A DNA stretch of 64,000 nt from a bacterium. Its GTDB lineage: Bacteria; SZUA-182; DTGQ01. The translations under genes were made by a program, and so were the position numbers. The DNA is taken from contig JBFLZW010000001.1 of the NCBI GenBank assembly GCA_040755755.1, forward strand, positions 62,001 to 126,000. Direction: 5' to 3'. Positions within the stretch are counted from its first letter, which is position 1, and every line of letters begins with the position of its first letter. The notes beneath the pieces are model-generated. The model saw nothing but the letters and a program-made list of their open reading frames with translations, made no database searches and was not told the DNA's origin. Positions 7,908 to 59,040 of the stretch are shown here, piece by piece.

Positions 7908-9611
7908 ATGGTTTTAGGAAGTATAGATAAGATTGAGAGTAGCTTGGTTGATTTCGTTGAGAAATTAACAGACGAATATATCCAGAACAGTGACCTGCGG
8001 GAAAGAAAATCCAAAAGACAATTCTTTACTCCGCCACAGGTAGGCATATTTATGGCAAACATGTTTACTATCAGTAAGTCTGATATCCATTTGCTGGATC
8101 CTGGGGCAGGAACGGGGATGCTCAGTGCAGCCTTTTGCTGCCGTATCTTGAACCTGGATAGACCGGTCTCCCTCTCGATAGATGCCTTTGAGAATGATCC
8201 GAAATTAATTCCGGTGCTTGATACGGTATTTGGAAACTGTAAGTCGGAATTAGAAAAAAAGGGGCATACACTTGTATACAATATCACTCAGAAAGATTTT
8301 ATCCTGAATAGGGTTAGCCTCCTTAAACAGAAAAGCCTTTTTGAGGATAGCAGATCGCCTCGTTATGATTTCATTATTTCCAATCCTCCTTACTACAAGC
8401 TCAACAAAAGCTCACTGCAGTCTCAGCTCATGGATGAATTTACCTCTGGACAGCCGAACATCTATGCTTTCTTTATGGCATTATCCTTGGAAATGCTCAA
8501 ACCTGGCGGGCAGATGGTTTTCATCACGCCGAGAAGCTTTTGTTCCGGGCTGTATTTTAAGAAATTCAGAAAATGGCTTTTACAGCACAGCCGGATAACT
8601 AATCTCCACATATTTGAATCAAGAAGCAGCGTCTTTGATAAGAACGAGGTTTTACAGGAGAATATCATTATAAAAATTGCTCGCAATGATAATACCGAGC
8701 ATACTGAGCATACTCAGCATACCGAGCAGCCAAAAGAAGTTGTTGTTTCAACGAGCAAAGACAAGTGCTTCCATAGTCTGGAAGAAATAAGAATTGACTA
8801 TGAAGATGTTTTGCAGAGAAGGAATGGAGATATATTCATAAAAATTCCAGCCAAAGAGACTGATTTGAGGGTCCAGCACATCGTGAATTCCTGGGATCAT
8901 ACGCTGAAAGATTTAGGAATGAAAGTCTCCACAGGCCCTGTAGTCTCTTTCCGGGCCAAAACCTATCTCTCCCCGGAGTTTATCGATAAAAGGACAACAT
9001 CACCCCTTTTATGGATGCATAATATCCAGGGCATGGACGTGATCTGGCCATTAATAAAGAAAAAGAAGGAAATGGCAATCAAGATAGAGGAGAGAACAAG
9101 ACCCCTTTTAGTTCCAGCAGGTAATTATGTTCTCATAAAAAGGTTCAGCTCTAAAGAACAGAAGAGAAGGCTCTATGCGGGTGTGTTATTGAAATCGGAA
9201 TTTGATTTTGAAAAGATTGGTATAGAAAATCATCTCAATTACCTATACAAATGTGACGGAATGCTCTCGGTTGAGGAGGCGTATGGTATCGCCGGCATCC
9301 TGAATTCGTCGCTCATGGATATATTCTTCCGGATGATAAACGGCAATACTCAGGTGAATGCCGTGGATATTTTAAACCTTCCCCTGCCTTCGATCGAATT
9401 GGTAAGAGAAATAGGAAGGTTGATTAAAAGGGATAAGCCACCAATAGGCAGGGAATTGGATATGGCTGTTGCGGAGGTGTTAGGCATAGATGGAAATCTG
9501 GCTGAAATAGTAAATGGCAAGGCCCAAGAGCATGACCGAACTCTACCAGAGGTGGTCACGGCTTACCAAATCACCAAGAAGATCGAAAGATACTGGGAAA
9601 AAGGGATATGA
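7908..9611 (+). CDS. N6-adenine DNA methyltransferase, Eco57I/PaeR7I-like
   Basis: 567 aa. N-terminal SAM-dependent MTase domain: FTPPQVGIFMAN near residue 40, motif I LLDPGAGTGML near 62, motif IV ISNPPYYKL near 158, then KPGGQMVFITPRSF. The C-terminal 300 residues would hold target recognition (LPLPSIE region, as in Eco57I-class enzymes). It would methylate adenine in a short site, normally with a paired endonuclease. No endonuclease gene is visible beside it, so it looks orphan. No clear ribosome site before ATG 7908. Its TGA overlaps the ATG of the DUF2283 remnant (ATGA). The segment around 8690-8730 (EHTEHTQHTEQ) is a low-complexity linker. Confidence 0.85.
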   Translation: MVLGSIDKIESSLVDFVEKLTDEYIQNSDLRERKSKRQFFTPPQVGIFMANMFTISKSDIHLLDPGAGTGMLSAAFCCRILNLDRPVSLSIDAFENDPKLIPVLDTVFGNCKSELEKKGHTLVYNITQKDFILNRVSLLKQKSLFEDSRSPRYDFIISNPPYYKLNKSSLQSQLMDEFTSGQPNIYAFFMALSLEMLKPGGQMVFITPRSFCSGLYFKKFRKWLLQHSRITNLHIFESRSSVFDKNEVLQENIIIKIARNDNTEHTEHTQHTEQPKEVVVSTSKDKCFHSLEEIRIDYEDVLQRRNGDIFIKIPAKETDLRVQHIVNSWDHTLKDLGMKVSTGPVVSFRAKTYLSPEFIDKRTTSPLLWMHNIQGMDVIWPLIKKKKEMAIKIEERTRPLLVPAGNYVLIKRFSSKEQKRRLYAGVLLKSEFDFEKIGIENHLNYLYKCDGMLSVEEAYGIAGILNSSLMDIFFRMINGNTQVNAVDILNLPLPSIELVREIGRLIKRDKPPIGRELDMAVAEVLGIDGNLAEIVNGKAQEHDRTLPEVVTAYQITKKIERYWEKGI

Positions 9612-9788
9612 AGGTCATATATGACCAGAAGACTGATCCTATGACTATCATCTTCGTAGAAGATGTATCTATAGCCGAGAGCGATGAAGATAAACCGGGA
9701 GTTATCCTGGACTTATGATGCATCAGGAAACTTGGTATCACTGGAAATCCTCGATGCATCCCGCCGGATAAAGTCACCAAAACAGATT
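9608..9788 (+). pseudogene. DUF2283 protein, frameshifted
   Basis: ATG at 9608 overlaps the methyltransferase stop. The frame reads MKVIYDQKTDPMTIIFVED..PGVILD, the first half of a DUF2283 domain, then hits TGA near 9718. One frame over, starting at the same point, it reads YDASGNLVSLEILDASRR, exactly the second half. Removing one T near 9710-9716 restores a complete domain. DUF2283 proteins are small and often sit beside toxin-type genes. The downstream frame runs straight into the HEPN segment. Confidence 0.75.
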
Positions 9789-10421
9789 GATTATGATGAT
9801 GCTGTTGAATTATTTAACCAGAAAAGGTTCAATAGCTCTGCATCAAGGGCGTATTACGCATCTTATCAAGCCATGTGGTCTGCTTTAGGTGATCCCAAAG
9901 ATGGAGAGAGTTGGAGGCATCTTGCTATAATAAAGCACTTTGTGAGGGGATACCGGTTTGAATCAAACCATCCCAAGACAGGGCCAGGTCTATTGGAAGA
10001 CAAACGCGACTGCCTTTAAGGCGAATGGCACTTACATAAGCCAAGCTTATAATATAGAGAGGACACAAAGCACACAGGGAAAAAAGATCTCCCGCAGAAG
10101 ACGCAGAGAACAACCAATCCGGCAAGGTCCTGATGAAAGTCGGGATATATCGATGTGTCAACGGCCTGGAAGCAAGCAAAAAGTAAAAAGGCACAAGGAG
10201 GAACTTGTTTTACTTTTACTTTTCAATGATATCCTCTGCGTCTCAGCGTCTCTGCGGGAGAATTACTAATTCTTATGTAAGTGCCATTCCCTTTAAGGCG
10301 GCTTTACTCTTATAGGATAAGGAGTGATTATGACGTCGTAGATATTGATCAGCATAACTTAAAGGAATTACTAAAGATAGTAGAAGAGGTAATAAGTATT
10401 ATTGCCGAGAAGGGAAGATAA
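9789..10421 (+). pseudogene. HEPN-domain protein, interrupted by an inserted element
   Basis: The left part (about 9789-10012) encodes DYDDAVELFNQKRFN..SASRAYYASYQAMWSALGD..GLLEDKR, a typical HEPN N-terminal half. The right part (about 10300-10421) encodes LYSYRIRSDYDVVDID..LKIVEEVISIIAEKGR and a stop, the matching C-terminal half. Between them lies a 267-base inverted-repeat element flanked by a 10-base duplication. The two halves are not in frame even after excision, so small indels have also accumulated. HEPN proteins of this type are often toxin or RNase components. Confidence 0.75.
10023..10289. mobile_element. 267-bp MITE-like element in the HEPN gene
   Basis: 18-base perfect terminal inverted repeats: GAATGGCACTTACATAAG (10023-10040) and its complement (10272-10289). 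Directly outside lies a 10-base target duplication, CCTTTAAGGC, at 10013-10022 and 10290-10299. There is no transposase inside. The interior contains a second inverted repeat (CTCCCGCAGA.. at 10089 against ..TCTGCGGGAG ending 10260) of the same family as the palindrome at 58967. A non-autonomous element that moved into an existing gene is the simplest reading. Confidence 0.85.
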
Positions 10422-10846: not shown

Positions 10847-12661
10847 ATGATATCTCATGAGCCAGAATTTATTATGTACAAGCATACAAAGCCCAAAGAG
10901 AAAGCCCGAATAGAATTTGGAGATTTTCAAACTCCGCAGGAGTTGGCTTTCCTGATTTGCAGGTTTCTCAGGAGCACGGGTATTGCGCCTTTATCGATAG
11001 TCGAGCCAACTTGTGGACAGGGCAGTTTTCTCATCGCTGCCCTGGAGACTTTTACCTCGGCCAGCCAGGTGCTGGGGATTGATATTAACAGCTCCTATCT
11101 CAATAAGGTACGCGATAAGTTATTGAATCATCCATTCTCAGGCAAGGTCGAGCTCAAGCACGGGGATTTTTTTGCCCTGAGATGGAGAAACATAGTAGAC
11201 ACCTTGCCTGAGCCTTTATTGATAATAGGAAATCCACCCTGGGTAACGAACTCCGAATTGGGAAGTATCGATGGCGGGAATCTTCCCTTGAAGTCTAACT
11301 TTCAACATCATGGAGGACTTGACGCCATTACGGGTAAAAGTAATTTCGATATCTCGGAATGGATGCTGATTCAATTACTTACCTGTATCAGGCATAAACA
11401 GGCGATACTGGCTATGCTGTGCAAGACTGCTGTTGCCCGTAAGGTTCTCAAGGATATGTGGCAGAATAACCCTGGGATAGCCAATGCCGCAATCTATTTG
11501 ATTGATGCAAAGAAATACTTCAATGTTTCTGTCGATGCATGTTTGCTCATATGTCATGCCAATAAAAGGCAAGTTACTATGGATTTTCTCCATTTCCCCT
11601 ACTATAAGGGCTCCCTGTTTCTCGATGAGGAGGGTGGAAATAGCCATCACCCCCACCCAACCTCCCCCCTCAAGGGGGAGGAGCCCAAAGATGCCCCCCC
11701 TGACACAGGGGCTCCCTGCCTCAAGGGGGCGGGGGGGAGGGAAAGCTCTCTCCTTAAGGGAGATAGCCAAGGCCCTCCCCTCAAGTGTGATGGTGAATGC
11801 TCCCACACAAGATTGGAAACATCTGAAGTTTCCAACCATGCGTATGTCTATCCGTGTCTTACCCAAAACTCACCCATTGCAGCCATTGGTATCAGAGATT
11901 CCCGGCTCATCGCTGACATAACAAAATACACCCGGTGGAAGCATCTTGAGCTTGAAGGGGAGGAGTTGTATACATGGCGATCCGGGATAAAGCATGATTG
12001 CAGGAAAGTGATGGAACTCATCCAGGAGGAGAATTCCTATAGGAATGGCTTAGGTGAATGTTACGACCTTGAGGATAACTGTATCTATCCATTCCTCAAA
12101 AGTTCTGACCTTGGCAGGCGGGAAGATAGTGCTTTTTGCAAGGATGGTGCTTCTTGTATTGTTCCTCGTTGTTGGGTTATAATTACTCAGGAATTTGTCG
12201 GGCAGGACACTTCCACTATCCGCCATAAGGCACCAAAAACATGGCGTTATTTAGTAGACCACAGGGATTTCTTTACTCAGCGTAAGAGCTCGATTTATAA
12301 AAACCGTCCCCCTTTTGCTATTTTTGCCATAGGGGATTATGCATTTTCACCCTGGAAGGTAGCGATATCCGGGCTCTATAAAAAGCTTTATTTTGTTGTC
12401 ATCGGCCCCCATGCTGGTAAACCCGTTATGGTAGATGATACCTGTTATTTTATTTCATGCCACAGTGAAGGTGAGGCTAACTTGATTGCAGAGTTATTAA
12501 ATTCATCTCCTTCGCGTGAGTTCCTGTCGTCGTTCATATTTTGGGATGCAAAAAGGCCGGTTACAGTCGAAGTTCTCAGGCGAATAGATATTGTTAAGCT
12601 TGCTGATGTCTTAGGCAGGAAGGAAGAGATTGAATTTTATTTAGGCAAGAAGAAACAATAG
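10847..12661 (+). CDS. Second N6-adenine DNA methyltransferase
   Basis: 604 aa. DFQTPQELA near residue 28, motif I VEPTCGQGSFL near 54, acidic loop GIDINSSYL, motif IV IGNPPWVTN near 129. The rest is target-recognition type (FLKSSDLGRR; FAIGDYAFSPWKVAISG). It differs from the enzyme at 7908 and has no endonuclease partner here. Residues about 266-327 are a Pro/Gly/Lys-rich insert (HHPHPTSPLKGEE) encoded by an intruding repeat; removing it joins GGN with the conserved VYPCLTQ region. Start could be ATG 10847 or ATG 10874 (MYKHTKPKEK); neither has a strong ribosome site. Confidence 0.82.
   Translation: MISHEPEFIMYKHTKPKEKARIEFGDFQTPQELAFLICRFLRSTGIAPLSIVEPTCGQGSFLIAALETFTSASQVLGIDINSSYLNKVRDKLLNHPFSGKVELKHGDFFALRWRNIVDTLPEPLLIIGNPPWVTNSELGSIDGGNLPLKSNFQHHGGLDAITGKSNFDISEWMLIQLLTCIRHKQAILAMLCKTAVARKVLKDMWQNNPGIANAAIYLIDAKKYFNVSVDACLLICHANKRQVTMDFLHFPYYKGSLFLDEEGGNSHHPHPTSPLKGEEPKDAPPDTGAPCLKGAGGRESSLLKGDSQGPPLKCDGECSHTRLETSEVSNHAYVYPCLTQNSPIAAIGIRDSRLIADITKYTRWKHLELEGEELYTWRSGIKHDCRKVMELIQEENSYRNGLGECYDLEDNCIYPFLKSSDLGRREDSAFCKDGASCIVPRCWVIITQEFVGQDTSTIRHKAPKTWRYLVDHRDFFTQRKSSIYKNRPPFAIFAIGDYAFSPWKVAISGLYKKLYFVVIGPHAGKPVMVDDTCYFISCHSEGEANLIAELLNSSPSREFLSSFIFWDAKRPVTVEVLRRIDIVKLADVLGRKEEIEFYLGKKKQ
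11642..11826 (+). repeat. In-frame repeat insertion in the methyltransferase
   Basis: GC-rich repeat with GCCATCACCCCCACCCA, CTCAAGGGGGAGGAG, GCTCTCTCCTTAAGGGAG and AACATCTGAAG blocks. The same blocks in the same order occur on the other strand at 50321-50430, inside the phage protease/scaffold gene. Both copies keep the host frame open. Confidence 0.8.
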
Positions 12662-58966: not shown

Positions 58967-59040
58967 TCCCGCAGAGACGCAGAGGCGCAGAGAAAATAAT
59001 TTTGTCTTTTTTACCTCTGCGCCTCTGCGTCTCTGCGGGA
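58967..59040. repeat. Perfect 26-bp-arm palindrome, GCAGAGACGCAGAGG type
   Basis: Left arm 58967-58992 (CCCGCAGAGACGCAGAGG core) and right arm 59015-59040 are exact complements around a 22-base AT-rich loop. The same arm type lies inside the inserted element at 10023. About 40 bases before the uvrA promoter. Confidence 0.9.

Follow-up and report, generated by a model that had tools for sequence, protein, structure and literature searches.

A strain-specific, recently spread family of MITEs with an IS4-type signature and one of its copies within a HEPN gene

The 64-kb window (the whole stretch of DNA that was analysed) contains a gene-less element of 267 bp inserted in a HEPN-family gene. This element very probably belongs to a high-copy MITE family that was, or still is, moved in trans by an IS4-family DDE transposase, with ends of the IS4-subgroup type. 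A recent and strain-specific family with an IS4-type signature is well supported: it is new as a family and ordinary in kind, and the mechanism itself is standard. In this way an unexplained high-copy repeat family is assigned to a defined type of transposase, and the combined signature of end, duplication and target becomes searchable in other genomes. The features of the locus are listed in Table 1.

Table 1. Features of the interrupted HEPN gene, the inserted element and the stand-alone palindrome (positions in the window)
Feature	Position	Strand	Basis
HEPN-family gene, N-terminal part, interrupted	9684–10019	+	Alignment to relative's HEPN protein
Target-site duplication, left copy CCTTTAAGGC	10013–10022		Repeat read directly outside end
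267-bp non-autonomous IS4-type element (MITE), probable	10023–10289	+	Ends, copies, duplication
Left terminal inverted repeat GAATGGCACTTACATAAG	10023–10040	+	Inverted-end comparison
Inner palindrome, left arm CTCCCGCAGAAGACGCAGA	10091–10109	+	Sequence, folding
Inner palindrome, right arm CTCTGCGTCTCAGCGTCTCTGCGGGAG	10234–10260	+	Sequence, folding
Right terminal inverted repeat	10272–10289	−	Inverted-end comparison
Target-site duplication, right copy	10290–10299		Repeat read directly outside end
HEPN-family gene, C-terminal part	10300–10421	+	PF05168; frame opens at 10281 inside element
Stand-alone palindrome, CCCGCAGAGACGCAGAG type, outside IS4-type element	58967–59040		No GAATGGCAC ends

The element is bounded by inverted ends of 18 bp that match each other with zero mismatches, and only 0.01 inverted pairs with up to three mismatches would be expected in shuffled sequence. 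Directly outside these ends the same 10 bp are found on both sides as an exact duplication. Perfect ends and a 10-base duplication had both been described in the initial annotation, and both were confirmed. No gene of its own was found within the 267 bp, as the open reading frames listed there are short or enter from the flanks; together with dozens of copies in the genome this supports the earlier claim of a mobile element without a transposase. The element folds into nested inverted repeats, composed of the terminal repeats and an inner CTCCCGCAGA...TCTGCGGGAG palindrome. The strong folding of the element strand (z −7.4) is explained by the inverted ends and this palindrome and was not counted as a sign of an RNA; a search against Rfam yielded nothing that matches across the element.

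The N-terminal half of the HEPN gene is not recognised by Pfam, but its product aligns with the HEPN protein of a relative at 75% identity. The C-terminal half (10281–10421) matches PF05168 with an E-value of 6e-4 and 20.4 bits, just below the cut-off of 22. An uninserted relative was available for comparison: in G002, which belongs to the same family, the HEPN gene occupies one open frame with nothing inserted and is followed by the same next gene. The element had been proposed to have broken the gene, and it does sit within it. However, removing the element would not bring the two halves into one frame, and the upstream frame runs into a stop that belongs to the target sequence itself. The gene thus carries a further lesion, and in view of this independent frame change the break cannot be ascribed to the insertion alone. 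Two type II restriction-modification DNA-methyltransferase genes flank the interrupted gene (window 7908–9611 and 10847–12661; PADLOC MTase_II matches of 2e-124 and 1e-157).

The assembly of the host genome (5.26 Mb in 88 contigs, 97.6% complete) contains 60 + 51 = 111 ends at up to one mismatch, and a DNA search recovered about 40 full or partial copies of the element with 90–100% identity. Full copies measure 263–275 bp and many are identical to a copy inserted elsewhere; among the full copies compared, the one in the window is one of four identical copies of 267 bp. We compared 35 element-sized end pairs, which include a few pairs of a second family (see below) and some composite pairs. Matching flanks were observed in 25 of them, with an exact 10-bp duplication in 23 and one mismatch in 2. 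A matching duplication is absent in the other 10 pairs, some of which are composite or second-family pairs; the remaining ones may result from recombination or assembly joins. The duplication carries a central TA in all 23 exact copies. When all 111 ends are considered, T stands at the sixth flanking position outward in 108 and A at the following one in 106, so that the target of the family in this genome can be written as N3-YTAR-N3. This pattern is independent of the query, since the target was not used in finding the ends.

An empty counterpart was also present: positions 1–130 of contig C35 correspond at 100% to both flanks of a copy on contig C14 (22 and 118 aligned bases) and contain a single AAACTAAATG, the sequence in which the C14 copy sits. 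The boundaries of the element and its duplication are therefore exact. The initial annotation had made its reading depend on further copies of the ends in the genome and on an empty site, and both exist: the genome-wide search returned dozens of copies, and insertion-free sequence is provided by the C14/C35 pair and by the gene in G002. The family is thus short, free of open reading frames, bounded by inverted ends and duplications in many copies and represented by empty sites, which identifies it as a MITE. These repeats also explain why many contigs of the assembly break there. At one further locus (L082 1224–1525) a full copy with its 10-bp duplication is directly followed by a lone 18-bp end, possibly what is left of an earlier insertion there.

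The ends were absent, at up to one mismatch, from 59 other genomes, among them eight relatives (one congener, two members of its family, one of its order and four of its class). The family could be taken for a dead one, with old copies explained by shared ancestry or recombination, as the assembly yields no transposase (see below) and some copies are without matching duplications. We regard this as unlikely, because many copies at unrelated sites are identical or more than 99% identical and the relatives have none; both observations show that the family spread recently. Its copies constitute a reservoir of insertion polymorphism. A plasmid collection searched with the element gave no match. 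Viral contigs with the 18-mer were considered and rejected, as the seven stretches contain single or same-strand matches and no inverted end pair.

The IS4 subgroup is characterized by ends of the type -AATR--------WTW---- and direct repeats of 10–13 bp (De Palmenaer et al. 2008, PMC2266710, Table 1). All seven constrained end positions are matched by GAATGGCACTTACATAAG (PMC2266710), and the 10-bp duplication falls within the range of the subgroup. The ends of E. coli IS4 read TAATGCC...GTTAAG. Unlike members of the subgroup, the element in the host genome is 263–275 bp long and non-coding, and the centre of its target is strictly TA. A text search of the literature did not find the GAATGGCACTTA end, and for TAAGTGCCATT it gave no paper on a bacterial transposon by title.

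Species-representative genomes were searched with a pattern that joined the end to the target core in front of it, and more than 119 matches were obtained; as this pattern included YTAR, target conservation among these matches is biased. Complete elements of 1518–1532 bp with inverted ends were found at eight loci (L129, L135, L139, L150, L169, L178, L181 and L206), with ends of GAATGGCACTTACTTAAG or ACATAAG. They encode proteins of 455–474 amino acids that are IS4-family transposases (NCBIfam IS4_1, NF033592), with scores of 217–236 bits against a cut-off of 115. A common Y-R-E-K spacing (LYKQRWHVELDLRNIK) is seen in these proteins, and the transposase of L129 is 29% identical to InsG of E. 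coli IS4. The Y(2)R(3)E(6)K DDE transposase of the IS4 subgroup is thus present in complete elements with the same ends elsewhere, whereas the window element has none. L206 combines the exact 18-bp left end of the window element with an open transposase frame of 457 codons; its 10-bp flank repeat has one mismatch. Exact 10-bp duplications were observed in Burkholderia-group copies, e.g. TGTCTAGGAT, CTCCTAGAAT and GGCCTAACAC. The elements from Paraburkholderia, Burkholderia, Caballeronia, Rhodoferax and other proteobacteria (L135, L150, L169, L178, L206) share with the MITE 16–18 identical bp at the ends, the 10-bp duplication and a YTAR-type target, but they carry a transposase and their interior is unrelated. 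As a less biased check, 30 copies from six of these genomes were read, a few of which are the loci that brought the genomes in. Their target centre is looser: it is YTAR in 15 of the 30 and mostly CAGG- or CTGR-like in the others. Gene-less short elements with like ends and 10-bp repeats occur in other genomes as well (L142, L144, L173, L180, L183, L198 and L204). The first six of these, with GAATGGCACTTA ends similar to those of the MITE and 114–199 bp in length, likewise have no transposase gene; they differ from the MITE in the interior next to the ends and were read as sequence matches only.

Duplications of 10 bp are not by themselves confined to IS4. The element could in principle be a MITE of another IS family with duplications of 8–10 bp (e.g. 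IS1, IS256 or ISAs1) whose IS4-like ends arose by convergence, and the host genome provides no partner transposase that would speak for IS4. However, several independent complete elements combine the 18-bp end (0–1 differences) with the same duplication and target class, and all of them encode a transposase of the IS4 family, which renders a different IS family highly improbable. The expectation that duplication size and terminal repeats could identify the responsible transposase was thus borne out at the level of the family, by way of complete elements elsewhere.

According to our preferred reading, an IS4-family transposase would bind the 18-bp ends, cut the element out, presumably by cut-and-paste chemistry, and join it to target DNA cut with a 10-bp stagger around the TA of N3-YTAR-N3; the 10-bp duplication would arise as the gaps are filled. 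Mobilisation in trans may belong to the past or may still take place, and the inner CCCGCAGAG...CTCTGCGGG palindrome would be a passenger module common to other repeats of the genome. The enzyme itself, the chemistry and the movement in trans are deduced. Profile searches of this 97.6%-complete assembly gave no match to an IS4 transposase of this type and none to PF13006, the N-terminal domain of E. coli IS4, and the matches to PF01609 are only fragments of other IS elements. One PF01609 fragment was considered as a partner and discarded: it is itself interrupted by an end of the second family, so that the proximity of a terminal repeat is no evidence of partnership there. At L066 (3009–3593) a second-family element is inserted in a fragment of an IS transposase gene of another type. 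A match to the transposase profile in the relative G003 (E 4e-4) was also rejected, being a short C-terminal piece with an interrupted frame. Those contig ends bearing terminal repeats that were read all lead into MITE-type sequence and not into IS sequence. The partner transposase may have been lost, may have acted from a mobile replicon or may be missing from the assembly, in which repeats could have collapsed; an orphan MITE does not need a partner in its own genome.

The palindrome has a distribution of its own. Its arm CCCGCAGAGNCGCAGAG occurs 77 times in the host genome; a search of the eight relatives found no copy. By position, 35 of the 77 arms are no more than 260 bp away from an IS4-type end and are hence assigned to the element family; the other 42 are found elsewhere. 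Among the first 30 places read, many of the arms outside the element belong to other kinds of repeat, at least two, each with conserved flanks of its own. The palindrome is therefore a module common to several repeat families, of which the MITE is only one carrier, and the suggestion that a mobile carrier explains the palindrome family is not supported. The palindrome reported to stand alone at 58967 is real and of the same type, with no GAATGGCAC ends around it. One could suppose that the CCCGCAGAG palindrome is the true mobile unit, similar to REP or BIME sequences, and that the GAATGGCAC ends are incidental flanks, given the 42 arms outside the element, which include stand-alone hairpins. 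We consider this very unlikely, as the GAATGGCAC ends mark the exact limits of the duplications and empty sites, a second family combines these ends and a TA-centred target with a different interior, and one 120-bp copy (L076) is without the DNA between the palindrome arms.

This second short family of the host genome has ends of the type GAATGGCACTTACAGAAG/AGAAC or GAATGGCACTTACAGAAC and a length of about 145 bp or more (L072 12262–12405, L074 2542–2686, L070 3025 and L079 2548). Its GC-rich interior is unrelated to that of the first family and its target is the same, centred on TA. These shared ends and target would fit a single transposase that acts on several MITE families. More tentatively, it is conceivable, though we would not favour it, that an IS4 transposase, short-lived or delivered horizontally, recently invaded the genome, amplified at least two unrelated MITE families that share only about 14 terminal bases and then disappeared; what remains would be an orphan burst limited to this strain. 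In this scenario the GC-rich palindrome spread on its own through several of the repeat families. Further contexts of the CCCGCAGAG type (window 58967–59040; L250–L272) are flanked by TTAAGGATAGAAGAATGA...CGCTCTTATGGGAAAGACGACACG and CCTATAGAGGGG...TCGCTCATATTGGTAAGACAACAC and may represent other mobile families.
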